Shown here: piece after piece, positions 2,668 to 19,746 of the stretch
Position numbering within the stretch: the first letter of the stretch is position 1
Layout of the letters: every line of letters starts with the position of its first letter
The notes under the pieces: generated by a model
Seen by the model: the letters and a program-made list of their open reading frames with translations, nothing else
Told to the model about the DNA's origin: nothing
The model's database searches: none
Made by a program: the position numbers and the translations under genes
Source of the DNA: a virus
Virus record (IMG/VR): IMGVR_UViG_3300007276_000254
Coordinates: 1 to 26,249 of that record
Reading direction: 5' to 3' (one strand)
Length of the DNA stretch: 26,249 bases

Positions 2668-2709
2668 ATTAAACAAAGTTTAATATTACTCATTGATTTA
2701 AACCAAACC
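2668..2709 (+). promoter_or_regulatory. Dyad plus ATTTAAACC promoter/operator element, copy 1
   Basis: A 7-3-7 inverted repeat, ATTAAAC-AAA-GTTTAAT (2668-2684), is followed by TATTAC and then ATTTAAACCAAACC starting at 2696, 20 nt from the dyad centre. The ATG of the 49-aa gene is at 2720. The same layout recurs at 5867, 9994 and, on the minus strand, 17989. I infer a shared promoter or operator for these genes. Confidence 0.65.
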
Positions 2710-2719
2710 CCCTAATAAG

Positions 2720-2869
2720 ATGAACGATTTAACCTTTACCACGAAAGCCGAAGTTCTTAAGAAGTTCGAAGAATTATATATGAACCGGCCTAGCGATATT
2801 TATAATATGTATTTTATAAAAGCTTCGGCTACTTACGTACTACGAAAAGAGGCGCGAAGCAATGGTTAA
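2720..2869 (+). CDS. Small hypothetical protein (49 aa)
   Basis: A 49-codon frame starts at ATG 2720 and ends at TAA 2867-2869, overlapping the start of the PP-loop gene (ATG 2862) by 8 bp. It lies directly downstream of the dyad element and fills what would otherwise be a gap. Codon use (CTA, GAA, TTA) matches the genuine phage genes. The product is a small basic/amphipathic protein (begins MNDLTFTTKAEV) with a likely helical N-terminal half. I do not recognise a family. The overlap with the next gene suggests translational coupling. Confidence 0.6.
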   Translation: MNDLTFTTKAEVLKKFEELYMNRPSDIYNMYFIKASATYVLRKEARSNG

Positions 2870-3794
2870 GAAGAAACTACTTATAAGCTTTTCGGGGGGC
2901 GAAACTTCCGCCTACATGGCTGCGCGGCTTCTTACCGAAAAGCGCGACGAGTACGAAATAGCGCTAGTCTTCGCGAACACCGGGCAAGAAAACGAAGAAA
3001 CGCTAGTTTTCGTAGAAGCCTTCGCTAAGCATTTTAAAGTTAAAATTTATTGGATTGAAGGCCTACACTTCTACGGCCTCGGTAAAGGCACGCGCTTTAA
3101 ATTAGTAGACTTCGAAACCGCGGACCGGGTAGGGCGGACTTTTGAAAGCTTCGTAAGCGTTTACGGCCTGCCTAATTCTGCCGCGCCGCAATGCACCCGC
3201 GAACTAAAAGGCGCCCCTATAAAGGCCTTCGCGCGCTTATTTTTGGGCTGGCGTGGCTACTATACCGCGATAGGAATAAGGGCCGACGAAGCGGACCGTA
3301 TGACTAAAAGCGCTAGAAATAGCAAATTTATCTACCCGCTTATATCTACGTGGCCTACGACTAAGCCCGAGGTTAACGCTTTTTGGGCGGCTATGCCCTT
3401 TAGACTAAAGCTAAAAGGCTACGAGGGTAACTGCGTTTTTTGTTGGAAGAAGTCTAAAAAGAAGCTGCTAAAAATAGCGCAGGAACGGCCCGAAGTTTTC
3501 GCTTTTCCCGCACACCTAGAAGCTACTTACGGCGACTTTTTCCCGGCGCACCGTGCCGAAGCGTGGCGCAAAGCGGGCAAAGAAATACCCAAAAATATTA
3601 AGATGTTTAGGGGCAGCGTTAGCGCCTTAGATATCCTAGCCGAAGCCGCTACCCTGCCGCCAGTAGAAGTATCCGACGATAGCGTAGAAGTAGACATACT
3701 AGGCAGCCCTATAAACCCGGACGACTTAGACCTAGTAGGCGGCGATAGCTGCGAAGTTTGGGCAGACTGCCGAAGCGACGACGAACTAATATAA
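2862..3794 (+). CDS. PAPS-reductase-like PP-loop (ATP-pyrophosphatase) family protein
   Basis: This 310-aa protein belongs to the phosphoadenosine-phosphosulfate reductase/ATP-pyrophosphatase (PP-loop) superfamily. The PP-loop SGGETS lies at residues 11-16. The motif CTRELKGAPI at 111-120 matches the substrate-binding region of this group, and a CVFC cysteine pair lies at 191-194. Family members bind ATP and adenylate a substrate; in bacteria they act in sulfate assimilation, and the DndC subgroup acts in DNA phosphorothioation. In phages the substrate is usually unknown. Here the gene sits among DNA-modifying and DNA-processing genes, which hints at a nucleic-acid-related role, but that is inference. 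The last 60 or so residues are acidic and look like a low-complexity tail. Confidence 0.82.
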   Translation: MVKKKLLISFSGGETSAYMAARLLTEKRDEYEIALVFANTGQENEETLVFVEAFAKHFKVKIYWIEGLHFYGLGKGTRFKLVDFETADRVGRTFESFVSVYGLPNSAAPQCTRELKGAPIKAFARLFLGWRGYYTAIGIRADEADRMTKSARNSKFIYPLISTWPTTKPEVNAFWAAMPFRLKLKGYEGNCVFCWKKSKKKLLKIAQERPEVFAFPAHLEATYGDFFPAHRAEAWRKAGKEIPKNIKMFRGSVSALDILAEAATLPPVEVSDDSVEVDILGSPINPDDLDLVGGDSCEVWADCRSDDELI

Positions 3795-3812
3795 TTTTAA
3801 CTTCCTAATCTT

Positions 3813-4100
3813 ATGACCGAAAAACAAATAGAAAAGAAGCTACGCCTAGGCATTGAAAAGCTGGGCGGCTTATGTTTAAAATTCCCTGCTAGCTTCTTCG
3901 CCGGCATACCGGACCGCCTATGTATCTGCCCGGGCGGGCTAGTCTTCTTCGTAGAAACGAAGGGCGAAGGGCTTAAGCTGCGACCGCGCCAGCTACACGT
4001 AGCGAAGAAGCTCAAAGCGTTAGGCGTTCGCGTGTACGTCGCGAACTCCGCCGCTATGGTGGACAACCTTTTAATTTCACTTGGTGCCGTCTACACTTAA
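3813..4100 (+). CDS. VRR-NUC domain nuclease
   Basis: A compact 95-aa VRR-NUC (virus-type replication-repair nuclease) protein of the PD-(D/E)XK superfamily. The catalytic motifs are readable: an N-terminal glutamate in the first helix (MTEKQIEKKL), GIPD at residues 31-34 and ETK at 48-50, followed by the conserved RPRQ at 57-60. Stand-alone VRR-NUC proteins of about 90-100 aa are common in phage replication modules and act as structure-specific or Holliday-junction nucleases. The gene follows the PP-loop gene by 18 nt and precedes the SNF2-type helicase, a frequent partner of VRR-NUC genes in phages. The opposite-strand frame over the same bases is a shadow. Confidence 0.88.
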   Translation: MTEKQIEKKLRLGIEKLGGLCLKFPASFFAGIPDRLCICPGGLVFFVETKGEGLKLRPRQLHVAKKLKALGVRVYVANSAAMVDNLLISLGAVYT

Positions 4101-4139
4101 AATAAATTTTATATAAACGAGACTAAAAAACTTTAAAAA

Positions 4140-4466
4140 ATGATTCAGGAAAAAAAAGTATTTGAAACGCCAAACTTTGGCGGCGAAGGCGTGTTGCATT
4201 TTGATATCGAAAAGGACGCGGTTAATTACGTGGCTTTTTACGCCTTGGAAGAGATCCGAAACAATTACCCAAATAACGGGATAAGGGGACCCATTAAGAA
4301 AGCCGAGTTGCTTTACAATTCTATTAAATTATTAAACGCCAAGTCTCCAGAAATGCTTGAGTGTTTAATCGAGGCTGTCTCAAAGGTAGCATTTGAGGGC
4401 TTCCAAGAATTTAAAGATATTACGCCCGAAAGTCCTAAAGGTTATAACCCCGCAACCGCGTGCTAA
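4140..4466 (+). CDS. Hypothetical protein, atypical codon use
   Basis: A 108-aa protein that I do not recognise. It appears soluble, with alternating helices (the central part is predicted helical by eye) and no obvious catalytic or metal-binding motif. The ATG at 4140 is preceded by an A-rich leader (CTTTAAAAA) rather than a Shine-Dalgarno sequence. Its codons differ from its neighbours: it uses TTG, ATC and ATT with almost no CTA or ATA, whereas the flanking genes use CTA and ATA heavily. That suggests a later arrival from another genome. It overlaps the start of the helicase gene by 7 bp, so it is integrated into the operon. Confidence 0.65.
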   Translation: MIQEKKVFETPNFGGEGVLHFDIEKDAVNYVAFYALEEIRNNYPNNGIRGPIKKAELLYNSIKLLNAKSPEMLECLIEAVSKVAFEGFQEFKDITPESPKGYNPATAC

Positions 4467-5848
4467 GCCTTAACAACCTCCACGACTACCAGCGATTCGG
4501 CATTAAGCACGTACTAGAGCGCGAAGAGGGCGCCGGGCTTTTCCTAGACATGGGCCTAGGTAAAACGGTAATAGCCTTAACGGCCATACGCGAACTACTA
4601 GACCGGCTAGAAGTTAGCCGCGTGCTAGTAGTAGGTCCTAAGCGCGTAGTAGAATCAGTATGGACGCAGGAAGCTACGAAGTGGCAGCATACCGCCGGGC
4701 TAACTTTTAGCCTAGTAGCCGGTACCGCTAAGAAGCGCGAAGCAGCGCTAGAAGTGGAGGCCGACGTTTACCTAGTTAGCCGGGATAACATACCGTGGCT
4801 ATGCGGCCTTTACGGCGGCAGCTTCCTACCGTTCGATCTACTTATATTAGACGAACTAAGCAGCTTTAAGAACCACCAAAGCCAGCGCTTCAAAGCGCTT
4901 AAGCGGGTCCGCAAGTCCGTAGGCCGGGTAATAGGTCTAACCGGGACCCCGGCGCCTAACGGGTTAATTGACTTATGGGCGCAGGTATTTCTACTAGACG
5001 GCGGCGAACGCTTAGGCCATAGCGTAGGGCGCTACCGCGAAGCTTACTTTAAGCCCGACGCCCGTAACGGCGCTATGGTTTATAACTATAAGCTGAAAGA
5101 CGAAGCGCAGCAAGGTAGAATCTATAAGGCTATAGGCGACCTTTGTATAAGTATGAAGGCCGAAGACTTCTTAGATATGCCGGAAAAAATACTAATTGAC
5201 GAACGCGTAAGCTTCGGCCCTAAGCTGGCTAAGGACTACGCCGACTTCGAGAAGGAATTAGTACTAAGCTTACTTAGCGAACTGGGCGAAAAAGAAATAA
5301 GCGTAGCCAGCGCGGCGGCCCTATCTAATAAGCTGCTACAGTTCGCTAACGGTGCGGTATATGACGAAGACCGCGAAGCGCACGCCGTACACGATCTTAA
5401 GCTAGATAAGCTAGAAGACATACTGGAAGCCGCGAACGGGCGGCCGCTGCTAGTAGCGGTAGCTTTCCGCCATGACGCGGCCAGGATAATGAAACGATTT
5501 AAAAGCATTAAGCCCCGGCAGCTAAGTGGCCAGCAAGATATAGACGACTGGAACGCCGGGCGCGTATCTATGCTAATCTTACACCCTGCCAGCGGCGGGC
5601 ACGGTTTGAATATCCAACACGGTAGTAATTTTATAGTATGGTTCGGCCTTAATTGGAGCCTAGAACTTTATAAGCAGCTTAACGCCCGGCTATGGCGCCA
5701 AGGGCAGAAAGCTAAGCAGGTTTTTATCTACAGGATCCTAGCCGCCGGTACGCTAGACGAACGCGTAATTAGGACCTTAAGCGAAAAAGACAGCACCGAA
5801 GGCGAACTGCTTAGCGCCGTTAAAGCAATTATTAAAAAATATATTTAA
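4460..5848 (+). CDS. SNF2-type DEAD/DEAH-box helicase
   Basis: A 462-aa superfamily 2 helicase/translocase of the SNF2 type, ATP-driven and acting on double-stranded DNA. Motifs appear in order: a Q-motif-like HDYQRFG (residues 8-14), Walker A DMGLGKT (30-36), DELS as the DEAH-equivalent motif II (131-134), TGTPAPN as motif III (161-167), and RLWRQGQ as motif VI near 410-416. Length fits the short phage SNF2 helicases. The start is GTG at 4460; an in-frame TAA at 4445 excludes an earlier one, and the start overlaps the previous stop. Proximity to the VRR-NUC nuclease suggests both serve replication or recombination. Confidence 0.9.
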   Translation: MLSLNNLHDYQRFGIKHVLEREEGAGLFLDMGLGKTVIALTAIRELLDRLEVSRVLVVGPKRVVESVWTQEATKWQHTAGLTFSLVAGTAKKREAALEVEADVYLVSRDNIPWLCGLYGGSFLPFDLLILDELSSFKNHQSQRFKALKRVRKSVGRVIGLTGTPAPNGLIDLWAQVFLLDGGERLGHSVGRYREAYFKPDARNGAMVYNYKLKDEAQQGRIYKAIGDLCISMKAEDFLDMPEKILIDERVSFGPKLAKDYADFEKELVLSLLSELGEKEISVASAAALSNKLLQFANGAVYDEDREAHAVHDLKLDKLEDILEAANGRPLLVAVAFRHDAARIMKRFKSIKPRQLSGQQDIDDWNAGRVSMLILHPASGGHGLNIQHGSNFIVWFGLNWSLELYKQLNARLWRQGQKAKQVFIYRILAAGTLDERVIRTLSEKDSTEGELLSAVKAIIKKYI

Positions 5849-5866
5849 ATTTTGTTTGTTTATTAT

Positions 5867-5907
5867 TTAAACTTTGTTTAATATTACGTATTCATTTAAA
5901 CCAAACC
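5867..5907 (+). promoter_or_regulatory. Dyad plus ATTTAAACC promoter/operator element, copy 2
   Basis: TTAAAC-TTT-GTTTAA (5867-5881) is followed by TATTACG and ATTTAAACCAAACC from 5894, again 20 nt from the dyad centre. It sits in the gap between the helicase and the 179-aa gene (ATG 5920). The 14-base downstream block is identical to that of copy 1. Promoter/operator function is inferred. Confidence 0.65.
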
Positions 5908-5919
5908 TCTTAAAAAATT

Positions 5920-6459
5920 ATGCTTCCTAAACTACATTTATTAACCGCTAAAGACGACGGCCTGCGCCCAGCGCTTGCTTGCGTAAGAATTACAAAAAAG
6001 GACTTAAGAGCCTGCAGCGGCTTTATCGGGGCGATAATCCAAACCGAAAGCACCGGGCTAAAAATCGAACAACTGCCCGAAAGTCCGGTTTACATGAAGG
6101 CCGAAAGCTTTAAGCTGTTAACGACTCCGGACGTCGTAGCGATTATCTTTGAGGGCGAGTTTTTTAGAGTTCTTCTTAGAAATAAGCCCTATAAGTTGGC
6201 CCCTATATATGAGTTAGATGAAAATTACCCGGACTTAGATGCTGTTTTCCCTACCGGGGATCAGGCGAAGGATACCGGCGAAGTAGGTATCAACCCTACG
6301 CTTTTATCGCTTTTAGCGGAGGGGCTAACCCTGCCCAGCGAAAAAAATAAGAGTCTAAAGTTAAAGTTTTGCGGAACTAACAGGGCTATTTTAGTTAAGA
6401 CCTTCGCTTCGGAGCTGGACGCAAAAGGGATAATACTGCCGGTAGCTATTGAAAATTAA
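5920..6459 (+). CDS. Hypothetical protein, possibly sliding-clamp-like
   Basis: A 179-aa protein with no certain family. Two segments recall a bacterial beta sliding clamp (DnaN) fold: the N-terminal LTAKDDGLRPALACVRI resembles the start of a clamp subdomain, and the C-terminal GIILPVAIEN resembles the end of the last clamp domain. A full DnaN is about 370 aa, so this would be a half-length clamp-like protein. It has its own dyad element upstream and a hairpin terminator just downstream, so it forms a one-gene transcription unit within the replication region. The clamp idea is a weak pattern match. Confidence 0.6.
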   Translation: MLPKLHLLTAKDDGLRPALACVRITKKDLRACSGFIGAIIQTESTGLKIEQLPESPVYMKAESFKLLTTPDVVAIIFEGEFFRVLLRNKPYKLAPIYELDENYPDLDAVFPTGDQAKDTGEVGINPTLLSLLAEGLTLPSEKNKSLKLKFCGTNRAILVKTFASELDAKGIILPVAIEN

Positions 6460-6467
6460 ACCTAACC

Positions 6468-6485
6468 GGCCCTTCGGGGCCTTTA
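6468..6485 (+). terminator. Hairpin terminator after the 179-aa gene
   Basis: GGCCC-TTCG-GGGCC forms a 5-bp GC stem with a TTCG tetraloop (6468-6481), followed by a short TTTA tract. It begins 9 nt after the stop of the upstream gene. The U-tract is weak, so termination may be partial. Confidence 0.6.
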
Positions 6486-6503
6486 CCCTAACCCTTAAAT
6501 AAG

Positions 6504-6935
6504 ATGAACTTAAAAGAAACCCTAGCCCGTATAGCGGACGACCTTAAGACGCTAGACGCGCAGATAGCCGAAACGGTTAGCACTATTACGCTAGGCTGCG
6601 AAGTAGAAGTAGCCGACCTAGCAGCCGACTACGAACGCCAGCTAGGTCGCTTATCAGCTTCGCACGCGGAAACCGACGCAGCTACTAAAGCGCGCTACGA
6701 AGCCTACCTAGATACGCTTAAAGACAAGGCGGCCGAAGCCTTAGAAGAACTCGAAGAACTACAGCGGACTACCGAAGACGCGCTAGAACTGCAGGCCGAA
6801 TTAGAGATGGACCGCAGCGGCGTTCTACCTACCGGGAACCTTAAGCAGCGGCTAGCCTTCGACAAGCTGGCGGCGTGCTGGGAAACCTTAAATTTAGACA
6901 ATCTTGAAACCTATCTAGACTCATGTACAAAATAG
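6504..6935 (+). CDS. Hypothetical coiled-coil protein
   Basis: A 143-aa acidic protein that is helical almost throughout. Alanine, glutamate and leucine dominate, and heptad-like spacing runs from about residue 5 to 105 (for example LEELEELQRTTEDALELQAE near 80-99). No enzyme motif is visible. Position in the replication block suggests an accessory, single-stranded-DNA-related or scaffolding role, but this is not supported by sequence. The ATG at 6504 is preceded by an A/T-rich leader (CTTAAATAAG). The opposite-strand frame at 6704-6901 is a shadow of this coiled coil. Confidence 0.7.
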   Translation: MNLKETLARIADDLKTLDAQIAETVSTITLGCEVEVADLAADYERQLGRLSASHAETDAATKARYEAYLDTLKDKAAEALEELEELQRTTEDALELQAELEMDRSGVLPTGNLKQRLAFDKLAACWETLNLDNLETYLDSCTK

Positions 6936-7102
6936 AAATCAAGATAACCGGCCGCGGGAAGGCTAGAAGGCTAGCTACTTTCTTAGAGTTAGTTAACTTT
7001 TACGATAAGCCAAATATAAAAAAGACGCTTATAGTAGAAGAAGACCGGCAGCTAGCCTTTCTTTTTAGCCCGGAAATTAACTTAGAAATAATAGCGGAAT
7101 AG
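6923..7102 (+). CDS. Small hypothetical protein (59 aa)
   Basis: A 59-codon frame starts at ATG 6923, overlapping the end of the coiled-coil gene by 13 bp, and stops at TAG 7100-7102. The product is basic at the N-terminus (MYKIEIKITGRGKARR) and alternates hydrophobic and charged residues toward the C-terminus (a likely small alpha/beta fold). Codon use (CTA, ATA, TTA) matches the phage. A terminator follows 28 nt later, so this is probably the last gene of the replication block. No family recognised. Confidence 0.6.
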   Translation: MYKIEIKITGRGKARRLATFLELVNFYDKPNIKKTLIVEEDRQLAFLFSPEINLEIIAE

Positions 7103-7130
7103 TGGCTAAAAATAGCGAATGTTTAAAATT

Positions 7131-7150
7131 AGCGCCTACGGGCGCTTTTT
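7131..7150 (+). terminator. Rho-independent terminator ending the replication block
   Basis: AGCGCC-TACG-GGCGCT (7131-7146) forms a 6-bp stem followed immediately by TTTT. It lies 28 nt after the 59-aa gene and before the long non-coding region. Confidence 0.8.
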
Positions 7151-7162
7151 GCGTTTTAGCAG

Positions 7163-7216
7163 GGTAAACACAAAAGGCCCTGTTTACCTTTGTGTTTACC
7201 TCGGTGTTTACCTTCG
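7163..7216 (+). repeat. TGTTTACC iteron-like repeats
   Basis: Three direct copies of TGTTTACC start at 7181, 7193 and 7205, exactly 12 bp apart. An inverted copy (GGTAAACA) lies at 7163-7170. Further copies of the TGTTTAC core occur at 7391 and 7489, and inverted at 7448-7455. The region 7103-7546 otherwise holds no gene: it contains the terminator, these repeats, an AT-rich tract (7247-7300) and an inverted repeat (7307-7359). Regular spacing close to the helical repeat is typical of replication-initiator or packaging-protein sites; which one is unknown. Confidence 0.7.
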
Positions 7217-7306
7217 TAACTACTTAAGAGCCAATATGTTAGAACCTATTTACTATACTATATATACTATATATACAATAAGAAGAAGAAATATATAGAA
7301 GGCGAA

Positions 7307-7359
7307 GGGGTAGGGGTCTGCACGCGAGGCGCTAGCACCCGTATAGACACCCCTACCCC
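7307..7359. repeat. 11-bp inverted repeat in the non-coding region
   Basis: GGGGTAGGGGT (7307-7317) is exactly complementary to ACCCCTACCCC (7349-7359), with a 31-nt loop that contains the small palindrome GCTAGC. The arms are strand-biased (G-rich on one side, C-rich on the other). No U-tract follows, so it is not an obvious terminator. It lies next to the iteron-like repeats and AT-rich tract. Confidence 0.75.
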
Positions 7360-7546
7360 CGTAAGGATATATAGAGTTTTTTGTGTTCTTTGTTTACTTT
7401 GGCACTTTTTCGGCTTATAAGTAGCTGGCTATTAGCAAAGTAGTAGGGGTAAACAAAGAATTTACTTGAAGGGGTCCCGGCTTAGTTGTGTTTACTTTTG
7501 GCTTTTGTGGCTCTTTTTTCGTAAAATTGTTTAAAATAATAGAACT

Positions 7547-8020
7547 ATGGCAGCACCTTTCGGGAATGAATACTACCGCAATAGGATAAGAGTAGGGGCC
7601 CCGCGTAAGTTTGACACGCCGGAAGCCTTAGCCGAAGCTTTTAACGACTACTTCGAGGACGTGGAGGCTAACCCGCTAAAAGAATCTACACTAATAAAAG
7701 TTAAGGAAGGACTGAGCGAGAAAGTTAAAGTTTTTAAGCGCCCTTTGCCGCGTGCTATGACGCTGCAAGGCTTCTGCGCCTTTACCGGGCTGAGCATGGT
7801 TACGCTTTACGAGTACGATAAGCAAGATGGTTATACTAATATCATAGCGCAGGCGCGCGAAGTTATGTACGGCCAGAAGCTAGAAGGCGCTGCGGCTGGC
7901 TTATTTAACGCTTCGATAATAGCCCGCGAACTAGGCCTAGCCGAAAAGTCCGAACAAAGAATATTGCACGAACAGCCCCTTTTTGATGATAGCGACGACG
8001 CCGAAGAAGAAGACGCTTAA
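7547..8020 (+). CDS. Terminase small subunit
   Basis: A 157-aa DNA-packaging small subunit, which recognises phage DNA and hands it to the large subunit. The central part (MTLQGFCAFTGLSMVTLYEY, about residues 66-85) fits the helix-turn-helix DNA-binding domain of this family, and the helical C-terminal part (including NASIIARELGLAEK) fits the oligomerisation region and ends in an acidic tail. Its position directly before the large subunit, with a roughly 35-bp overlap, supports the call. The upstream non-coding repeats may include its recognition site. The ATG at 7547 is preceded by an A/T-rich leader with no Shine-Dalgarno sequence. Confidence 0.85.
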   Translation: MAAPFGNEYYRNRIRVGAPRKFDTPEALAEAFNDYFEDVEANPLKESTLIKVKEGLSEKVKVFKRPLPRAMTLQGFCAFTGLSMVTLYEYDKQDGYTNIIAQAREVMYGQKLEGAAAGLFNASIIARELGLAEKSEQRILHEQPLFDDSDDAEEEDA

Positions 8021-9314
8021 GAGGCTAGCCGGCTTTACCTATACCTCGGCCATAAAGAAGCTGCGAGCGCTGCGAAAGACCGGCGCCCGGACCTACGTAA
8101 TACCTGGCGGCACTTCGGCCGGTAAGACCTTCGGCATACTGCCTTTACTAATAGACCTAGCAGCTAAGGAGGCCGGGCTAAGTATTTCGGTAGTATCGGA
8201 AAGCATACCGCACTTAAAGAAGGGCGCTATAAAAGACTTTAAAAATATAATGACGGCTACCCGGCGCTGGGTAGACGGCCGGTATAATAAAACAGACCGC
8301 GTTTATAGTTTTGCCAATGGCAGCTATATAGAATTTTTTAGCGCGGATAGCGAAGGCCGGGTTAGGGGTCCGCGGCGAAATATCCTTTACATAAACGAAG
8401 CAAATAATATAAGCTTCGACACCTACTACCAGCTAGCTATTAGAACCGATCGCGAAATCTGGCTAGATTATAACCCTAGTAACGAGTTTTGGACGGACAC
8501 CGAACTAGGCGACGACGAAGACGCCGTTAAGTTAATTTTAACATATAAGGATAACGAAGCGCTGGCGCCTTCCATAGTTAAAGAAATAGAGAAGAACCGC
8601 GTTAAGGCCTTCTTCGACGAAAGCCTAGAAGGCGAAGCGCTATTTAGCGAAGCTAATATTAAGTCTAGTTATTGGGCGAATTGGTGGAAGGTCTACGGCC
8701 TAGGCCTAACCGGATCCCTTATGGGCGTGATCTTCCAAAATTGGAAGCAGATTGACGGCATACCGGTAGACGCCCGGCTACTAGGCTACGGGCAAGACTT
8801 CGGCTTTACGGCAGACCCGGCGGCTACTATAGCGGTTTACTCCTACGGCGAAAAGATAATAGCGCACGAACTAATCTACCAGCGCGGGCTACTTAATACC
8901 GACTTGGTAAAGCAGTACAAAGCTACCGGCGTAAAGCCCGGGCTTAAGATATGGGCAGACAAAGCGGAGCCTAAAAGCATTAAAGAAATAAGCGGCTACG
9001 GCTTTAATATCGACGGCGCCGACAAAGGGCCCGATAGCGTTAACTTCGGTATCGACTTACTGCAGGGCTTCGAAATTTTAGTAACTTCTTCTTCGCTTAA
9101 TCTTATACGCGAATTACGCAGCTATCTTTGGGAAGTAAACAAAAAGACCGGCAAGGCTACGACCGACCCGCAAGACGCTAATAACCACGCAATCGACGCG
9201 CTGCGCTATTTCGCGGTTATGGCGTTAACCAGCTACCAACCTACATACAAATCTAAAACCCATGGTAAAACTAAGCGGAAGACTAAAGGGCAGTACTATA
9301 GCGACATGCTTTAA
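7986..9314 (+). CDS. terL: Terminase large subunit (PBSX/terminase_3 type)
   Basis: The packaging motor: an ATPase that drives DNA into the prohead plus a nuclease that cuts the concatemer. Numbering from the TTG at 7983, Walker A GGTSAGKT is at 42-49, Walker B ILYINEA at 134-140, and the RNase-H-like nuclease acidic residues are D272 (in GQDFGF), D326 (in WADKAEP) and D405 (in HAIDALRYF). A TTG at 7983 could start one codon earlier; I prefer the ATG at 7986 (442 aa). It overlaps the small subunit, and the following gene begins inside its 3' end. Length and motif set are complete. Confidence 0.95.
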   Translation: MIATTPKKKTLKRLAGFTYTSAIKKLRALRKTGARTYVIPGGTSAGKTFGILPLLIDLAAKEAGLSISVVSESIPHLKKGAIKDFKNIMTATRRWVDGRYNKTDRVYSFANGSYIEFFSADSEGRVRGPRRNILYINEANNISFDTYYQLAIRTDREIWLDYNPSNEFWTDTELGDDEDAVKLILTYKDNEALAPSIVKEIEKNRVKAFFDESLEGEALFSEANIKSSYWANWWKVYGLGLTGSLMGVIFQNWKQIDGIPVDARLLGYGQDFGFTADPAATIAVYSYGEKIIAHELIYQRGLLNTDLVKQYKATGVKPGLKIWADKAEPKSIKEISGYGFNIDGADKGPDSVNFGIDLLQGFEILVTSSSLNLIRELRSYLWEVNKKTGKATTDPQDANNHAIDALRYFAVMALTSYQPTYKSKTHGKTKRKTKGQYYSDML

Positions 9315-9960
9315 CGGCCTAACCGGGGCTAGCCTCCACGCTATTAAAAAACATACGCCGCGCGAAGTACTGGCCGCGCTTTCTACGATACTGCCGGAAG
9401 CGCTGGCTAGCCTATCTACCGAAGAGGTCCTAGGCCTTTATGAGCTAGTAGCATTTGTAGACGATCTAGGCGAAGTAGCGGCGGCCCTACCTAGCGATAT
9501 AGCCCTGCCCGAAGTAGACGTAGCCGCCGGCACCTTCGAGCGCTTAGAACTAGCTAAAAAGAAGGCGCATCAAATACGCGAGCCCTACCGGCTTTTTGTA
9601 GAATTGGTGCGGGTCTACTTCGGCGAAGACTACTTAGCTAACCCGGCGCTAAGCTGCTTAGCTTTAGGCGCGATTATATTCGAAGACCTTACCGGCTTCT
9701 TAGTAAGATTTAAGGACCTAGGCCAAACCGACCCGCCTACCGAAGACGAAGAAGAAGCCGGGCTAGAAGCGCTGCACAGCTTCGGGCCTTACGGCATGGT
9801 AGAAGCTATAGCGGCTAAGTATCACGCTAGGCCCTTCGACGTATTCCAATGGACCGCCGAAGAAGTCTACCTAGAACTAACTTACCAGCAAGCTAAGAGC
9901 CGCTACCAAGAGAACCTAAGGGCCATAGAGCAAAGGAAGAACCAGCCAGCTAAAAAATAA
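9262..9960 (+). CDS. Hypothetical phage protein, possible tail-assembly chaperone
   Basis: A 232-aa, mostly helical, acidic protein. The C-terminal segment (PFDVFQWTAEEVYLELTYQQ followed by a charged end) resembles the end of tail-assembly chaperones, where a conserved W/M-x-x-x-x-V motif precedes a short helix. That similarity is suggestive only, and such genes normally sit just before the tape measure, whereas this one follows terminase. The ATG at 9262 lies 53 bp inside the terminase gene and is the only plausible start before about 9600. I saw no slippery heptamer suggesting a frameshifted G/GT product. Codon use matches the phage. Confidence 0.6.
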   Translation: MVKLSGRLKGSTIATCFNGLTGASLHAIKKHTPREVLAALSTILPEALASLSTEEVLGLYELVAFVDDLGEVAAALPSDIALPEVDVAAGTFERLELAKKKAHQIREPYRLFVELVRVYFGEDYLANPALSCLALGAIIFEDLTGFLVRFKDLGQTDPPTEDEEEAGLEALHSFGPYGMVEAIAAKYHARPFDVFQWTAEEVYLELTYQQAKSRYQENLRAIEQRKNQPAKK

Positions 9961-9993
9961 ATCACTTATTTTTAAAGAAAGTTTGCGTATTCG

Positions 9994-10027
9994 TTAAACA
10001 TTGTTTAATATTACGTAACAATTAAAC
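9994..10027 (+). promoter_or_regulatory. Dyad plus ATTAAAC promoter/operator element, copy 3
   Basis: TTAAAC-ATT-GTTTAA (9994-10008) is followed by TATTACG and ATTAAAC at 10021-10027. The central three bases differ from the other copies while both arms are kept. The downstream block is one base shorter than in copies 1 and 2. The ATG of the next gene is at 10037. Confidence 0.6.
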
Positions 10028-10036
10028 GATAAGGAA

Positions 10037-10420
10037 ATGAAAATTTTAGGCTTTACAGAAGATTTTACAGTTTGCGAGTGCTGCGGTAAGAAGAACCTTA
10101 AAGGCACTTTCGCCTTTAAGACTAACGAAGGCGAAGTTTTTTATTGGGGTTCTTCCTGCATTAAAAAGGCTTACCAACTGGACAAAAAAGGCTTTACCGC
10201 TAAGATTAAAGCAGACGAAAGCAACCGAAAAGCCGAAGCGCGCGCAGAATACTACGCTACCCCCGAAGGGGCTTTTTATAAAAGTTACATAGGAAGCGCC
10301 GCTCACGAAGCCGACTTAAAGGCCGGCGGCTTTTCGCTAGTGTTTAGCAAAATAGAGGCTTCCGAACTTAAGGCCAAAGAAATAAGGGCAAAGCACGGTT
10401 TTAGCTACCTTTCCTTTTAA
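10037..10420 (+). CDS. Cysteine-containing accessory protein, probable zinc-binding
   Basis: A 127-aa protein with an N-terminal CECCGKKNLKGTFAF (C13, C15, C16) and a later GSSC (C41). This pattern, cysteines then K-x-L-K-x-T and a Y-W-G-S-x-C motif, recurs in small phage proteins of unknown role and suggests a zinc knuckle; the C-terminal part is a charged helix. The gene has its own dyad element upstream (copy 3) and a strong terminator right after the stop, so it forms an independent transcription unit between packaging and tail genes. It is not obviously structural. Function unknown. Confidence 0.72.
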   Translation: MKILGFTEDFTVCECCGKKNLKGTFAFKTNEGEVFYWGSSCIKKAYQLDKKGFTAKIKADESNRKAEARAEYYATPEGAFYKSYIGSAAHEADLKAGGFSLVFSKIEASELKAKEIRAKHGFSYLSF

Positions 10421-10439
10421 GCCCTTCGGGGCTTTTTTT
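10419..10439 (+). terminator. Rho-independent terminator
   Basis: AAGCCC-TTCG-GGGCTT (10419-10434) followed by an uninterrupted T tract to 10439. The stem begins within the stop codon of the upstream gene, the typical layout of an efficient intrinsic terminator. Confidence 0.9.
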
Positions 10440-10468
10440 ATTGCTACGCTTTTTACTATTTTAGCTTT

Positions 10469-10807: not shown

Positions 10808-10881
10808 CATTATATTAAGGCCCTTATGGCGAACTATCAAAATATTGTAAATGTCTGAGGGCCGCGGCAGCGCCTAGCGGC

Positions 10882-11687: not shown

Positions 11688-13144
11688 GCGTAATTAACCA
11701 AATAACCGCGCCGGCTAACGGCGCCGACGTTTTTAGCCCTATGGTATTCGAGTTTAGCTTTGAAGCTGCTACGTGTAGCTTCGTAGATCTAACCGGCATA
11801 GCAGCTATAGACGTGCCACTAAGCTACGCTACGCTGCTAGAAGTAGGGGGCAGCGTGCGAATAACTAACGGCGCCTATTTGGGGGTCTACAGGATAACCG
11901 AAATAACGCCCGACGCGCTGCTAAGGCTTACGCTAAACACGCCTTTCATAGGTTCGTCTGCGGCTACCGGGTCTACTAGATTCACGCCAGAAGGCCCTAC
12001 AGTCTTTCAACTAATAGCGGGCTACAGCGCAGGCGACGAAGCGGCGGTTAAGCCATGGCAAGTTACCGACGAAATTAGAGTTAGCCCGAACCTTAGCGGC
12101 GTCTTCCGGGTAGACGTTAGCGGCTTCTTACGTTCGCGCTTTACAGTTACCGCGCCCGTAGTAGGCCCTAACGTACCTATAAGCATACGCTACGCGGTAC
12201 GGCTTAAGAGCGCTACCGATATACCCGACGACACCGGGGCGCTTACTGCTTACTATGGGCTAGAAGCGCTTACGCTGCCGCAGCAAGGCGGCGACGAGGT
12301 AGTAGGCGAAAGGCCTATTTTATTCTTCGGCGGAGCGCCTACGCTTTATAGCTTAGCGCTGGCTAAAGGAATTATTAACAATTTTATAGCGGATCCTAAC
12401 GCGCCCGGCGAAACTACCGCCGGGGCTACGGTGGACGTAAGACTTTTAAGCTGCCAGCCTAAAGTTATAAGCTGGTTAGGCACTTCGCCTACGGCCGGCT
12501 TTAGCGTTACGCCTGCGCTTCCTACGTGGATAGCCGCCACGGCCAACGGTAATAATATCGATTTAGTAATTAACCCATGCACGGCCGGCGCTGGCGACTA
12601 CCTTAGCGCCGACTATAGCCCGGTAGACTACTTAGTAGCTGGCGAAGTCAACAGCGTTACGGGCTGCTATAGTTTCGACTTCGACCTAGGCGGCTTACTG
12701 TTTACGCTGGGTATTTGTGTAACGCCTATAAGCGAAATAGTAGACGTATGCGCTAGCGATTCGCTAATCTTCGGCTGGCTAAACCAGCGCGGCGGCTTTT
12801 CTAGTATGGCCGTAGAAGGGCGCTACGTGAATGGCCGGGACTTCGGAAGCGATACGCTAACCGTAGACGCTAACCAAGTGCTGAAGCGCGTGCAATTTAA
12901 AGACGTTTACGATTATACCGATATACGCGGCGGCGTTATTTCTAAAAATCAAATAGACCTGCTAACTAGCCTACGGTCTGCTATTCAAGTCTACCTATAC
13001 AACACCGCTACGCAGGCCTTCGACATTCCTATAGTGCTAGACCGGGCTAGCTTTTCTACGTATGGCAACAAGTTTAACCAAAGCGAAACGCGCTACGGGT
13101 TTAGATTCAGACGGGCGCAGCGCCTAGTAATTCAATCGCAATAA
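11684..13144 (+). CDS. Tail/baseplate structural protein (unassigned)
   Basis: A 486-aa beta-rich protein with no enzyme motif. The N-terminal 160 residues alternate short strands and turns; a cysteine-containing middle follows (residues about 255-360), and the C-terminal 130 residues (beginning near FGWLNQRGGFSSM) form a distinct domain that I associate with Bacteroidota phage tail operons. Position between the tail completion gene and a large baseplate-like protein, upstream of the tape measure, supports a tail or baseplate role. The ATG at 11684 overlaps the preceding stop (ATGA). Function beyond 'structural' is not supported. Confidence 0.65.
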   Translation: MSVINQITAPANGADVFSPMVFEFSFEAATCSFVDLTGIAAIDVPLSYATLLEVGGSVRITNGAYLGVYRITEITPDALLRLTLNTPFIGSSAATGSTRFTPEGPTVFQLIAGYSAGDEAAVKPWQVTDEIRVSPNLSGVFRVDVSGFLRSRFTVTAPVVGPNVPISIRYAVRLKSATDIPDDTGALTAYYGLEALTLPQQGGDEVVGERPILFFGGAPTLYSLALAKGIINNFIADPNAPGETTAGATVDVRLLSCQPKVISWLGTSPTAGFSVTPALPTWIAATANGNNIDLVINPCTAGAGDYLSADYSPVDYLVAGEVNSVTGCYSFDFDLGGLLFTLGICVTPISEIVDVCASDSLIFGWLNQRGGFSSMAVEGRYVNGRDFGSDTLTVDANQVLKRVQFKDVYDYTDIRGGVISKNQIDLLTSLRSAIQVYLYNTATQAFDIPIVLDRASFSTYGNKFNQSETRYGFRFRRAQRLVIQSQ

Positions 13145-15193
13145 ATGACGACGCAGCTATATATAAACGGGCTTCTAGTAGATACGCAAAGCGCCGAAAT
13201 AGTACTAGACCTTCAGGCGTTTACCTTCGACAACCTAGGGAGCCGCCGCGGCAGTTATTCCAACGTCTTCGAGTTACCGAAAACGAATACGATTAAAGCG
13301 CTTTTCGATAACTGCGACATAGTTAACAGCTTAACACCGGTACCCTATAGCCGTAACACGTGCAAAATTTTTATGGACGGCGCGCTAGTTATCGACGGAT
13401 CCGCGGTTATACTGGAAGCTTCCGAAGCTTTCCGGGTTTATATTAGCGCGGGTAATAGCGACTTTTTTAAAAGTATTTCTTCGATAAAATTAGTAGACGT
13501 AGACCTAGTAGAATACGACCACATATACACCGGGCCGAACGTAACCGACCGGCGCGAAACTACCGAAGGCTTCGTTTACCCTAATGTAGATTACGGCTTT
13601 TTTGAGTATGCCGCACCCGGCGCCGCGTCTTATAGCTTTCGCTTCTTCCAGCCTAGTTTTTGGGCGAAGACTATAATAGGAAAGGCTATAAGCGATCTAG
13701 GCTACACGCTGGCCGGCGACATACTTAACGCGCTTACGTGGCGAAGCCTAGCCGTGCTATGCCGTGGCGCCGTGGCAGACCTGCTAGATAGCTTAGCGCA
13801 GTATCGCTTCACTATAGATTATAACCAGCTAACCGAAGACACCGCGCAAAAGATAAATTTCCCCGACCGGGTTTATGATAAGTCCGCGCTATATAAAGCC
13901 GACGCTACCGCAGGGCAGTTCGTTTACAGCCCGAACGTGGCCGACCGCACCGAAATAAGGTTTGAAATAAGCCTCAGCGGTAAGGTTATAACTAACTTAC
14001 CTAGGCGCTATACTAACGCCGAAGTATGGGTAGACCTGCTTATATACGACGCCGCCGGCACGCTGCTATTAACGCTTTCGCCTACGCCGGTAGTTTTCGA
14101 AGACCGCTTTTTCGGAGTCTTTAACGTCTACCGGGCGCCTTCTAGCGGGACCCTAGAACGTGATCTAAATTTTACTTACCCGTCAAGACGCGACGACGTA
14201 ACCGCCTTTAGCGCGCTGCTAGCCTCCACGGCCGACTTAACTACCTTACGCTTCGGCTGGCAGGTAAGGAGCAACCGCCCCGGCTACGGCCTTAAATATC
14301 TACGCTTCGAAAATTTAGAGTTTATAATAAACCAAGTACCAAACAACGGCACGCGCTTAGGCGGTCCGGTTATACCTATTAACGTAGCCGCGGCTAACGT
14401 GCTGCCGGCGGCGCCTACGGTAGGCGACCTACTGCTAACTATTGCTAACCTAGAAGGCCTAATTATACAAGTAGACGAAACAGCTAAGCGGGTTAACACT
14501 TCGCGACTAGACGGCCTAGTAGACCGCAAGGCCGACGCGCTAGACTGGTCTACTAAGCTAGACCTAACCGAAGACCCAAAGCTAACTTATTCGCTGGAAG
14601 GCTTAGCCCGGGTTAACTACTACGCCTTCGCCGGCGATGATAAGGATCCGCTGCTAGAGCCGAACGCAGGCCGCGGCCGGGTAGACGTACCTAACGAAAA
14701 CCTAGAAGCCGAAAAGACTATTTTTACTTCCAAGTTTAGCCCGGTGCCCGTGCTGCCGACGATGCAGAATAGCCGAACTATGGGCCGCGTCTTTACCGGT
14801 GAAAAGTACACCTTTGACGGGTTCAACTATAACCTAAACGACGATCTTAAACTAAGTGAATTCGGCGCCCGTATCGCCGTACTTTCGCCGGCTGAAGCTT
14901 CGCTAGATATTATAGTAGATGCTAACGTAATTAACTACGAAGTAAACGCCAGCGCGCTAAGCTTCGAACGGGCCATAAGAGATAACTACCGACTGCTAGA
15001 CGCGGTAACCGATAACACTAAAATAGTAGAAGCGCTATTCTTACTAGACCTTACCGATATTCAAAATATAGATTTTACTAGGCCCGTCTACGTAGACTAC
15101 TTCGGCGCTTTTTTCTATATTGAACGTATTAAGCAATTTAAGATTAACAGCCGCGAAAGCTGCTACGTACGACTAGTTAACTTAGCTATATGA
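13145..15193 (+). CDS. Large tail/baseplate protein
   Basis: A 682-aa protein whose N-terminus (residues 1-60: a short strand, then DLQAFTFDNLGSRRGSYSNV and FELPKT) matches a conserved start of large tail proteins from Bacteroidota phages, with an R-x-x-x-Y-S-N-x-F-x-L-P signature. The rest is beta-rich, with repeated Y/F-x-D patterns, and no hydrolase motif. It begins directly after the preceding TAA and shares an ATGA overlap with the following 49-aa gene. In siphoviruses such proteins sit at the tail tip near the tape measure gene. Distal-tail or baseplate hub identity is not resolved. Confidence 0.7.
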   Translation: MTTQLYINGLLVDTQSAEIVLDLQAFTFDNLGSRRGSYSNVFELPKTNTIKALFDNCDIVNSLTPVPYSRNTCKIFMDGALVIDGSAVILEASEAFRVYISAGNSDFFKSISSIKLVDVDLVEYDHIYTGPNVTDRRETTEGFVYPNVDYGFFEYAAPGAASYSFRFFQPSFWAKTIIGKAISDLGYTLAGDILNALTWRSLAVLCRGAVADLLDSLAQYRFTIDYNQLTEDTAQKINFPDRVYDKSALYKADATAGQFVYSPNVADRTEIRFEISLSGKVITNLPRRYTNAEVWVDLLIYDAAGTLLLTLSPTPVVFEDRFFGVFNVYRAPSSGTLERDLNFTYPSRRDDVTAFSALLASTADLTTLRFGWQVRSNRPGYGLKYLRFENLEFIINQVPNNGTRLGGPVIPINVAAANVLPAAPTVGDLLLTIANLEGLIIQVDETAKRVNTSRLDGLVDRKADALDWSTKLDLTEDPKLTYSLEGLARVNYYAFAGDDKDPLLEPNAGRGRVDVPNENLEAEKTIFTSKFSPVPVLPTMQNSRTMGRVFTGEKYTFDGFNYNLNDDLKLSEFGARIAVLSPAEASLDIIVDANVINYEVNASALSFERAIRDNYRLLDAVTDNTKIVEALFLLDLTDIQNIDFTRPVYVDYFGAFFYIERIKQFKINSRESCYVRLVNLAI

Positions 15194-15339
15194 AAGAATT
15201 AACCCTAGAAGACCTTAGCGCTAAGCTAGTAAAGGCTAAGGCCAGCTACGCCAAATGCGGCTGCAAAATATACAAAGAAGAAGCGGCAGCGCTTAGCGCC
15301 CGAATAAAGGAAATAGAAACCGGGCTAAAAGCCTTTTAA
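15190..15339 (+). CDS. Small hypothetical protein (49 aa)
   Basis: ATG 15190 overlaps the preceding TGA (ATGA) and the frame ends with TAA 15337-15339, 3 nt before the tape measure ATG. It fills the whole gap, has phage-like codons, and encodes a helical, charged peptide with a CGC (KCGCK) at residues 23-25. Its position just before the tape measure is where small tail chaperone or connector peptides can occur, but I do not recognise a family. Confidence 0.65.
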   Translation: MKELTLEDLSAKLVKAKASYAKCGCKIYKEEAAALSARIKEIETGLKAF

Positions 15340-15342
15340 GCT

Positions 15343-17727
15343 ATGGCAGAAGAAAGCATTTTATTAAGAGTAGGTATAGACGAAAACCAAATAGCCCGAA
15401 GCGAAGCGGCGGTAATTTCTGCGCGCGACAGTATAGACGCGCTACGCGAAGCGAATAAGAAGCTAGCCGACGAAGGCAAAAAGAATACGACCGAATACGT
15501 AAAAAACGAAACGGCGCTAAGGGAACTTAACACGACGGTAAGAGAAAACCAGCGCGTATTAGATGCTAACCAGAAGCTGCAGAAAAGCGCCGGCGGATCT
15601 ATACGGGAATTACGCGCCAACGTATCGCGGCTTAAGCAGGAATACGTGGACCTAAGCGGCGCCGAACGTGAAAACGCGCAGGTAGGCGGCGCCCTCCAAA
15701 AAGAACTACTAGCGCAGACCGAAGCGCTTAAAGCACTAGAAGGCGAAATAGGAGTAACCGGACGCAACGTCGGGAACTACACGGCTTCGATCTTGGAGGC
15801 TACAGACGGCACCGGGCTATTTAGCAAGGCGCAGCAAGCGCTAGCCGTAGCGCAGAAGGTAGCCAACGCCGCCACGGAAGGCGGAACTATAGCTACGCAG
15901 TCCTTCGGGAAAGCTTTAATAGCTACCGGCATAGGGGCGTTTATAGTTGTGATAGGTTCGCTTATTAGCTATTTAACCCGGACGCAGGAAGGTATGGACA
16001 AAGTAGCGCAGGCTACCGAAGCCGTAGGCACCTTTGTGGCCGTAGTATTCGACGAGTTTAGCCGCCTGGGTAAACAGGTAGCAGATAATATTATTCCTAC
16101 CTTCCAAGGCTTAGACGAAGTACTGGCCGGCATTTTTACGCTAGACTTCGACCGGGTTAGCCGCGGCATGGATAGGGTAGGCGAAGCGGTAGCTAATGTA
16201 GACGGCATTAACTTATTAGAAGTAGCCGGTAACGCTGCAGCGGCAGCGAAGGAAGCCGCCGGCCTAGAAAAGCAAATACAGAATATTACTAGAGCCGAAA
16301 AGGCGCTAGACCTAGAGCGCGCACAAGGGCGGCAAAACATAGAGGACCTTAAGAAGCTAGCCGAAGACACTACTAAAAGCACGGCTGAACGTGCGGCCGC
16401 TTCCGAAAAAGCCCTAGGCTTAGAACTGGCGCTAGAAGCTAAAGCTATAGGTTTACAGAAGCAACGGATAGAAGTACTAAAAGCTAAAAACGACCTAAGC
16501 AGTAGCACGGACGCCGACATTAACCGAGTAATAGACGCCGAAATAGAACTAGCCAACTTACAGCAAGAGAGCGCTACTAAGCAAATAGAACTAAATAACA
16601 AGCTTAACGCGCTACGAAAAGAAAGCGCGGCAGCGGGCGAAAAGCAGGCGGCCGACGAAAAGAAAGCGCAAGAAGTACGCGACGCGGACGCGGTAAAGCA
16701 AGCGACCGAAACTCAAAAGCAGCTTAACGCCGACTTCGTAGACGCGATTAAGAACCGGGCCGCCGAAGTGGACCTAGCTATAAGGGACTCCATTAATGAG
16801 GTCCGCCAACAATTCGCCGACGGGCTTATAGACCTAGAAACCTACCAGACACAACTAGACCAAGTAGAAGCGCTAGCGCTAGAAACGCGCCGCGCTGCGG
16901 TAGAAGGGCAGCTAGAAGTTAACCGCACTAACGCCGAAATCGACGCGCAGACGCGGCTAGCTATAGAGCGGGACCTACAAGCGCAGCTAAGACAATTACA
17001 AGATGAACAAGTAAGCGCCGGGGTAGCTAGTAGACAAGCCGAACTAAACGCCAATAAGGTATTAGCCGACGAGAAGAAGACGCTAGCCGACGAAACCGCC
17101 AGCGCTCAGATAGCCGCCGAAGACGCGGTATTAAATGCCGCTATTAGTATCTTCGGGGCGCAAAGCACCGCGGGTAAAATAGCTGCCAGCTTTCAGGCGT
17201 TACTAGATACCTACCGCGGGGCTAACTTAGCGCTAGGTACTATTCCGCCGCCTTTCGGGCAGATAGTGGCAGCGGCTACCGTAGCGCAGGGCTTAGCCAA
17301 CGTAGCGAAGATTAACAGCAAAGCGCCGCCTAAGTTCGAAGAAGGCGGCGGCATAGGAATAGACGGACCTAGCCACGCCGGTGGCGGGGTAGACGTAGCG
17401 GTAGGCGGGCAGACCGTGGCCAACGTAGAAGGCGGCGAGGGGCTTTTCGTAATGAAGAAAAGCGCCTATAAAAGTCTTCGCGCGCTTTCGGCCTTTAACC
17501 AAATGCACGGCGGGCGAAGCTGGCTTAGTGGAGGTAGTAGGCACCTAGCCGACGGCGGGGCTATAGCCCGATCTAGCGCGCCGGCTTTAGACCGCAGGGC
17601 TTTAATAGACAGCCAGCAAAACTTCGAGCAAGCTATAAGCCAGCTAGAAATAGTAACGAAAGTAACCGACATTAACCGCGTAAACGCAGAGGCTAAACTA
17701 GTTAGGATTAGCAGCGATTTAAGCTAA
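15343..17727 (+). CDS. Tail tape measure protein
   Basis: A 794-aa protein that sets tail length and leaves the tail at DNA ejection. Long coiled-coil segments (about residues 10-140 and 290-590, rich in A, E, K, Q and L) flank hydrophobic stretches, the clearest being ALIATGIGAFIVVIGSLISY at about 190-210, with another near 595-650. The C-terminus has a glycine-rich run (from about 665) containing EGGG and HAGGG patterns that often end tape measures. Three opposite-strand frames inside it are shadows of its biased codons. Length implies a tail of moderate length. It precedes the hairpin at 17734 directly. Confidence 0.88.
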   Translation: MAEESILLRVGIDENQIARSEAAVISARDSIDALREANKKLADEGKKNTTEYVKNETALRELNTTVRENQRVLDANQKLQKSAGGSIRELRANVSRLKQEYVDLSGAERENAQVGGALQKELLAQTEALKALEGEIGVTGRNVGNYTASILEATDGTGLFSKAQQALAVAQKVANAATEGGTIATQSFGKALIATGIGAFIVVIGSLISYLTRTQEGMDKVAQATEAVGTFVAVVFDEFSRLGKQVADNIIPTFQGLDEVLAGIFTLDFDRVSRGMDRVGEAVANVDGINLLEVAGNAAAAAKEAAGLEKQIQNITRAEKALDLERAQGRQNIEDLKKLAEDTTKSTAERAAASEKALGLELALEAKAIGLQKQRIEVLKAKNDLSSSTDADINRVIDAEIELANLQQESATKQIELNNKLNALRKESAAAGEKQAADEKKAQEVRDADAVKQATETQKQLNADFVDAIKNRAAEVDLAIRDSINEVRQQFADGLIDLETYQTQLDQVEALALETRRAAVEGQLEVNRTNAEIDAQTRLAIERDLQAQLRQLQDEQVSAGVASRQAELNANKVLADEKKTLADETASAQIAAEDAVLNAAISIFGAQSTAGKIAASFQALLDTYRGANLALGTIPPPFGQIVAAATVAQGLANVAKINSKAPPKFEEGGGIGIDGPSHAGGGVDVAVGGQTVANVEGGEGLFVMKKSAYKSLRALSAFNQMHGGRSWLSGGSRHLADGGAIARSSAPALDRRALIDSQQNFEQAISQLEIVTKVTDINRVNAEAKLVRISSDLS

Positions 17728-17749
17728 TAAAAAAAGCCCCGTAGGGCTT
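17728..17749 (-). terminator. Terminator, best for the minus-strand gene
   Basis: AAGCCC-CGTA-GGGCTT (17734-17749 on +). Read on the minus strand it is followed by an unbroken T tract (A-run at 17728-17735 on +), placing it just after the stop of the 62-aa minus gene. On the plus strand it is followed by AAATTTT and could also stop tape-measure transcripts weakly. Confidence 0.85.
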
Positions 17750-17754
17750 AAATT

Positions 17755-17943
17755 TTAGTAGTCGAAATAGCCCTCTAGTTCTCTTTCCCTTCTGGCGCCG
17801 CCTTCCGCCTCGGCGTAAAGGTTGAAAATTTCCGAGGTTGTTATCTCGTTTTCAGCGGCAAAAGTCTCTATAAACTTCTTCGCTTCCGCTCGGTCTTTTG
17901 TGTCTTTGCCTATGTAAGCGGCCACTTCAGTATAGGATGCCAT
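17755..17943 (-). CDS. Small hypothetical protein (62 aa), minus strand
   Basis: A 62-aa acidic, helical protein (begins MASYTEVAAYIGKDTK, ends GYFDY) on the strand opposite to all structural genes. It is supported by three independent signals: a complete dyad plus ATTTAAACC element (copy 4) upstream in the right orientation, an A-rich leader before the ATG, and a T-tailed hairpin terminator just past the stop. Codons differ somewhat from the flanking genes (more GAG, TTT, TCG). No recognised family. With the two small genes upstream it forms an accessory cluster between tail and capsid modules. Confidence 0.72.
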   Translation of the reverse strand: MASYTEVAAYIGKDTKDRAEAKKFIETFAAENEITTSEIFNLYAEAEGGARRERELEGYFDY

Positions 17944-17953
17944 ATTTTTGATT

Positions 17954-17989
17954 GGTTTAAATTAATACCCAATATTAAACAAAGTTTAA
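17954..17989 (-). promoter_or_regulatory. Dyad plus ATTTAAACC promoter/operator element, copy 4 (minus strand)
   Basis: On the minus strand the order is TTAAAC-TTT-GTTTAA (17989 to 17975), TATT, then ATTTAAACC beginning at 17962, exactly 20 nt from the dyad centre, as in copies 1 and 2. The 62-aa gene starts at 17943. A degenerate plus-oriented copy (CCAAAC-AAA-GTCTAA, 17997-18011, then ATTTAAAC) lies alongside. Confidence 0.65.
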
Positions 17990-19723: not shown

Positions 19724-19746
19724 CAACTAAAAAACCACTTAAAAAG

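Follow-up and report, generated by a model that had tools for sequence, protein, structure and literature searches.

Putative tandem operators in Bacteroidota-type promoters scattered through a clade of phages

Dispersed operators that are controlled by one phage repressor are already known. In phage P1, the C1 repressor has 22 dispersed operators (PMC8546580). In cluster A mycobacteriophages, the stoperators have asymmetric sequences and act by terminating elongation (PMC9283540), and the SAS and ESAS elements of cluster K mycobacteriophages combine inverted repeats with a short conserved block near start codons (PMC3203893). Controller proteins of the C.Esp1396I type are small dimers with a Cro/CI fold, and their promoter carries two operators that are separated by about two turns. 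Phage phiC31 reportedly has conserved inverted repeats that are similar dispersed operators. Here we describe an element in the IMG/VR virus record IMGVR_UViG_3300007276_000254 (positions 1 to 26,249; "the window" is this whole stretch of 26,249 nt). The window contains four copies of an inverted repeat, or dyad, TTAAAC-N3-GTTTAA (TTAAACNNNGTTTAA), and the same element is found in related phages. Judging from its sequence, each copy is very likely a Bacteroidota primary-sigma (sigma-A) promoter, with the dyad in its spacer.

As in P1, one operator sequence is found at many promoters across the genome, and the gene for the candidate regulator is apparently under the same operator. However, P1 is a temperate phage whose sites are asymmetric 17-mers, whereas these sites are symmetric, paired, and within Bacteroidota promoters, and we did not find a tyrosine integrase. 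SAS/ESAS likewise combine inverted repeats with a block beside the start codons of some genes, but the ESAS repeats, of 17 bp, are variably spaced and adjoin a 13-bp translation-start block. The element described here has a fixed spacing within a promoter, and its downstream block is in better register with the -7 box than with the ATG. Stoperators are also repressor sites that are spread through a phage genome, but all 24 of the sites that we analyzed are at promoters and none are within genes. The paired operators, about two turns apart, and the small Cro/CI-fold protein that is the candidate binder resemble the restriction-modification controllers, but in these phages the operators recur across many promoters, have another sequence, and are not associated with a restriction gene.

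An earlier reading of the window, made from the sequence alone (the original prediction), reported four dyads with centers AAA, TTT, ATT, and, on the minus strand, TTT, and we confirmed all of these. There are four exact matches to TTAAACNNNGTTTAA in the window, as compared to a mean of 0.01 in dinucleotide shuffles, and no shuffle reached four. The dyads are at 2669–2683 (TTAAACAAAGTTTAA), 5867–5881 (TTAAACTTTGTTTAA), and 9994–10008 (TTAAACATTGTTTAA) on the plus strand and at 17975–17989 (TTAAACTTTGTTTAA) on the minus strand; the predicted positions were right except that the first dyad starts at 2669, not 2668. A second block begins 20 nt from the dyad center, as was also claimed, with ATTAAAC, which is one base shorter, in copy 3. 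For the dyad and this block together (TTAAACNNNGTTTAA-N12-ATTTAAAC), there are four matches in the window versus 0.02 expected; copies 1, 2, and 4 have no mismatches and copy 3, with its shorter ATTAAAC, has three. At two mismatches, the dyad motif is not enriched in the window (6 matches versus 4.1 expected), so the signal lies wholly in the exact sites.

All four dyads are intergenic and are 23–33 nt ahead of an ATG. Two features had been missed: TTTG (CTTG in copy 1) lies exactly 8 nt 5' of each dyad, and a degenerate second dyad lies 22 bp upstream. A scan of the window for sigma-70 promoters and terminators found no enrichment of promoters (15 versus 16.9 expected) and flagged hairpins behind copies 3 and 4. 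An Rfam search of the window found no structured RNAs. We also considered a hairpin promoter for an N4-type virion RNA polymerase and rejected it: as RNA, a hairpin of the 6-bp arms and the 3-nt loop has a folding energy of only -0.4 kcal/mol, the longest listed open reading frame (ORF) is about 900 amino acids, and no ORF matches RNA polymerase.

Relatives were gathered by scanning viral contigs for TTG-N8-dyad-TATT and for terminase. The relatives G002, G003, G004, G005, G006, G007, and G012 have terminases that are 70–78% identical; G021–G024 joined later via a helix-turn-helix (HTH) protein that is discussed below. The sites in the relatives align to those in the window without gaps (ATTTAAACTTTGTTTGGTATTTCATTAAACTTTGTTTAATATTGNNTATCAATTAAACC), and the statistics for the clade are based on 24 non-redundant sites.

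Primary-sigma promoters in Bacteroidota have TTTG at -33 and TAnnTTTG at -7 (PMC7366714). Among the clade's sites, the -33 box, 8 nt before the dyad, is TTTG in 23/24 and CTTG in 1/24, and the spacer between the -33 and -7 boxes is exactly 20 nt in 24/24, but these counts are descriptive and are not an independent test, because the sites were partly picked with a matrix that was trained on the same element. The -7 box is mostly TAATATTG/A, with one or two departures from TAnnTTTG; variants include TATATTTG, TTACTTTG, and TAACATTG. The ATG follows 19–42 nt 3' of the -7 box. The original prediction stated that the element does not match the Bacteroidota promoter, and this is not supported, as the sites read TTTG-N20-TAATATT(G/A) or near variants. 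The phage promoters share the TTTG and the 19–20-nt spacer of the published promoter, with a TAnnTTTG-like box at every site. They differ in that the -7 box is mostly TAATATTG/A and in that the spacer is fixed and palindromic rather than generic AT-rich sequence. Two promoters match the published consensus exactly: site 6382 of G006 (TTTG-N20-TATATTTG) and the promoter of the HTH gene in G005 (TTTG-N19-TAGCTTTG). These exact matches give independent support for the identification as Bacteroidota promoters.

The degenerate second dyad (O1; TTAAA-N4-GTTTG) lies over the -33 box, 22 bp upstream of the dyad in the spacer (O2). O1 and O2 are 75% identical at an offset of 22, as compared to 25–51% at other offsets from 15 to 30. 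O1 matches 10.75 of 13 consensus bases, versus 5.2 after shuffling. The 22-bp spacing is two helical turns, so O1 and O2 are on the same face of the DNA. From this layout, O2 and the upstream half-copy are two putative operators, with O2 filling the promoter's spacer and reaching into the -7 box.

These could instead be plain host-type promoters that were multiplied within the phage by duplication or shuffling, with a symmetry that has no dedicated binder. The core is indeed a host-type promoter, and some copies head lineage-specific cargo genes, as portable promoters would. But the arms and the 22-bp spacing are conserved while the 8-nt stretch between the -33 box and the dyad varies, as does the center of the dyad. 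Also, the HTH gene of G005 retains a dyad downstream of the core, and several promoters of G001, which belongs to the same family by its structural genes, carry another motif in the spacer. We consider this explanation to be unlikely.

The block downstream of the dyad (ATTTAAACC) varies less in its distance from the -7 box (standard deviation of 1.3 nt) than from the ATG (3.2 nt), and it is presumed to be near the transcription start. A TTAAAC block is also found 3' of a promoter-like sequence in G001 that lacks the dyad, upstream of the ORF at 11702–11914 (minus strand). This suggests that the block may be an early-leader signal that is independent of the operator; or it may be a third half-site.

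The original prediction viewed the element as a phage-specific promoter/operator set and stated that random placement of the motif inside the genes of relatives would refute this. Instead, all 24 non-redundant sites are directly 5' of the start codons of genes; for two sites, an ORF was flagged, but these are upstream extensions of the true start. We also searched 84,980 species genomes for the exact element. There was no match in Bacteroidota, and the 11 matches, from other or unnamed lineages, resemble chance hits. These results support a phage-specific set. Alternatively, the phage might have adopted operators for a host regulator that binds the dyad, but the lack of the full element in Bacteroidota, together with the different spacer motifs of related phages, makes this very unlikely.

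Which protein might bind the dyads? The original prediction suggested a 46-amino-acid ribbon-helix-helix (RHH) protein (18303–18443, minus strand). Its gene is near copy 4, and it weakly resembles ParG, CopG, and Arc-like regulators. The RHH gene is present in the window, G005, G022, G023, and G001, but it is absent from G004, which is near-complete and has four strong dyad sites and one weak one, all before genes. Conversely, the RHH protein of G001 is 64% identical, yet G001 has no TTAAACNNNGTTTAA. Also, the window's RHH gene has no exact dyad upstream. Given this pattern of presence and absence, we rejected the RHH protein, and we consider it very unlikely to be the binder.

A phage protein with a Cro/CI-type HTH fold is probably a better candidate. 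It has 131–133 amino acids (67 in G023/G024), and its gene lies upstream of the exonuclease, SSB, and DNA polymerase genes in the relatives (for instance, 28973–29365 in G004 and 4964–5365 in G005, both on the minus strand). The gene is present in all four of the dyad-bearing lineages that cover this region (G004, G005/G021, G022, and G023/G024) and is absent from the dyad-less G001. Furthermore, the HTH gene's own promoter has a dyad in the spacer in G004 (degenerate) and in G023/G024. In G005/G021, the dyad is directly downstream of the core; since the core in G005 is the canonical TTTG-N19-TAGCTTTG, the dyad and the core promoter are separable.

The AlphaFold model of the HTH protein (pLDDT of 86.5) has a compact and all-helical N-terminal domain. 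This domain overlays the Cro/CI-type domains of C.BclI, DdrO, and lambda repressor with a root-mean-square deviation of 2.0–2.8 Å, and the nearest folds in the PDB include C.BclI and C.Csp231I. Croceibacter phage P2559Y and Bacteroides phage BF486P2 encode distant homologs of the HTH protein at the corresponding position, before the replication genes. Searches for further relatives of the HTH protein, including via SSB, did not identify any new lineage with the dyad.

On balance, we favor a model in which each element would be a host-type promoter with tandem operators for one dimeric phage regulator, with the HTH protein as the best candidate and repression as the outcome; we consider this model to be somewhat probable. 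If a protein does bind these sites, then repression is likely, because the operators cover the -33 and -7 boxes and because the regulator's gene carries the same operator. We infer the binding of the HTH protein to the dyad, the direction of control, and the timing. Host RNA polymerase would read all of these promoters when the DNA enters the cell. The HTH regulator would be made and would then repress its own promoter. It would then fill O1 and O2 and shut polymerase out of the -33 and -7 boxes, so that scattered early and accessory operons would be switched off together as infection proceeds. We searched 15 records, including the near-complete G004 and several fragments, and did not find Phage_integrase (the tyrosine integrase), although this search did not extend to serine integrases or plasmid lysogeny. 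As no Phage_integrase was found, we view the circuit as timing lytic growth rather than as conferring immunity.

Besides the partly circular choice of sites, several observations weigh against this model. The position of the operators in the spacer suggests repression without proving it. The co-occurrence of the dyad and the HTH gene amounts to about five independent genomes. The HTH gene is not in the window, which is a truncated contig that does not reach this region, so the link is via the relatives. In G022, the HTH promoter has no clear dyad, and both the sites and the HTH protein have drifted. The assignment of the HTH protein is also weak: a Foldseek search of the PDB with the model gave no match at E ≤ 0.001 (the E-values exceed 0.03), a Pfam search of the protein found no HTH family and no match to HTH_3, and the match of the G005 protein to PHROG 4583 ("transcriptional repressor") has E = 0.0098 only.

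The dyads might also be bound by an activator, for instance a regulator from the early or middle phase of the phage (perhaps the HTH protein itself), with promoters that are silent until it is made. The departures of the -7 box (TAATATTG/A) from TAnnTTTG could weaken the promoters when they are unaided, and the HTH fold overlays those of restriction-modification controllers, whose tandem operators serve for activation as well as repression. However, an O2 that runs from the spacer into the -7 box and an O1 over the -33 box are in positions for exclusion, and the dyad in or just after the core of the HTH gene's own promoter is typical of autorepression. Activation therefore seems improbable to us.

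Around the O2 dyads of the window, the other parts of the element are as follows. Copy 1 (plus strand) has an O1 of the TTTAAAAATAGCTTG type at 2647–2661, which is degenerate, forms a 22-bp direct repeat with O2, and overlaps the methyltransferase stop codon (the ORF ends at 2650). Its -33 box (CTTG) is at 2657–2660, its -7 box (TAATATTA) is at 2681–2688, and its putative early-leader block (ATTTAAACC) is at 2696–2704. Copy 2, also on the plus strand, has O1 (TTTAAATTTTGTTTG-type) at 5845–5859, overlapping the SNF2 helicase stop codon (this ORF ends at 5848), followed by TTTG at 5855–5858, TAATATTA at 5879–5886, and ATTTAAACC at 5894–5902. For copy 3 (plus strand), these are O1 (TTTAAAGAAAGTTTG-type) at 9972–9986, TTTG at 9982–9985, TAATATTA at 10006–10013, and the shorter ATTAAAC at 10021–10027. 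Copy 4 is on the minus strand, with O1 (TTAGACTTTGTTTGG) at 17997–18011, TTTG at 17998–18001, TAATATTG as the -7 box at 17970–17977, and ATTTAAACC at 17954–17962.

The promoters start at or just past the stop codons of conserved genes: the methyltransferase, the SNF2 helicase, and the gene at 9262–9960 in the window, and the exonuclease and DNA polymerase genes in relatives. Copy 1 is followed by 2720–3794 (plus strand), which encodes a 49-amino-acid ORF (2720–2869) and a 310-amino-acid protein that is similar to PAPS reductase (2862–3794). The first gene behind copy 2 encodes a RusA-like resolvase (5920–6459, plus strand). Copy 3 is followed by a lineage-specific ORF of 127 amino acids (10037–10420, plus strand) and then a terminator-like hairpin (10419–10434), and copy 4 by a lineage-specific ORF of 62 amino acids (17755–17943, minus strand) and then a similar hairpin (17749–17734). 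With one gene and then a hairpin behind each, copies 3 and 4 have the promoter-gene-terminator form of a moron. The two hairpins, which close these cassettes, are nearly identical (AAGCCC-TTCG/TACG-GGGCTT). G010 has a similar hairpin at the junction that corresponds to copy 3, with no copy of the promoter there.

Genes downstream of these promoters are often specific to one lineage: none of the window's ORFs that begin at 2720, 2862, 10037, and 17755 matches anything in the compared relatives, while the genes before copies 1–3 do have matches there. In the slot after the methyltransferase, the window has the 49-amino-acid ORF and the PAPS-reductase-like gene, G002 has an 86-amino-acid ORF followed by RusA, and G004 has a cytosine methyltransferase. 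Core genes can also be under these promoters, as is the case for SSB. As compared to G004 (35.3 kb), the window is missing the part that encodes DNA polymerase, SSB, exonuclease, the HTH regulator, endolysin, and holin. At the two ends of the window, the ORFs are incomplete: the first lacks the N-terminal part of a VapE-like helicase, and the last continues past the end. The portal region is split or adjacent at the ends of G004, so G004 is probably a near-complete genome, circular or permuted, of about 35–36 kb.

Other phages have comparable layouts. In G001, several promoters (23268–32248) have their own spacer motif, TTAAATAAATTGTTTAATATT, with five matches within three mismatches (one of which is the opposite strand of the same site) versus 0.01 expected. 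G001 also encodes an 82-amino-acid HTH_26-like protein (25649–25897) and has the motif TTAAATAAATTGTTTAA. This spacer motif and HTH-like protein are a natural pair for studying the co-evolution of operators and regulators. An unrelated phage, G008 (39.7 kb), has about nine sigma-70-like promoters (TTGACT-N17-TAATAT; 14127–30853) with TTAAACATCGTTTAA or variants in the spacer, and the earliest of these precedes an HTH-like gene of 71 amino acids. The HTH interpretation in G001 and G008 was chosen after seeing the data, so it supports the model but is not an independent test.

We rejected P2559Y as a carrier of the dyad: its genes are in the same order and include one for a distant HTH homolog, but TTAAACNNNGTTTAA is absent. 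The TAAACAATCATTGTTTA repeats of P2559Y, which are found only upstream of the HTH homolog and near the end of the record, may be unrelated. At these two places, 19660–19768 and 38922–39154, arrays of AAACAAT/ATTGTTTA repeats could be an origin or operators. More distant relatives by terminase (L026–L095) have no exact dyads, and their spacer palindromes are too few to judge.

Although dispersed operators under one phage repressor have been described before, such a set in phages of Bacteroidota appears to be undescribed: a limited search of the literature found no description of one, which is not proof of absence. The similar layout in G008 suggests that operators in the promoter's spacer are a recurrent solution. 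The element marks slots where accessory genes come and go, so cargo genes can be found by this motif. We speculate that a phage without a detectable integrase, with one Cro-like protein and a uniform promoter with tandem operators, has a plug-in standard: new cargo in fixed accessory slots behind core genes would be on early and off late, and divergent operators in related phages would insulate their regulons. This idea is tentative, and we would not bet on it. More concretely, the control of transcription in Bacteroidota phages has been little studied, and this element gives them something testable: a defined promoter with two operators and a specific protein as the candidate regulator.

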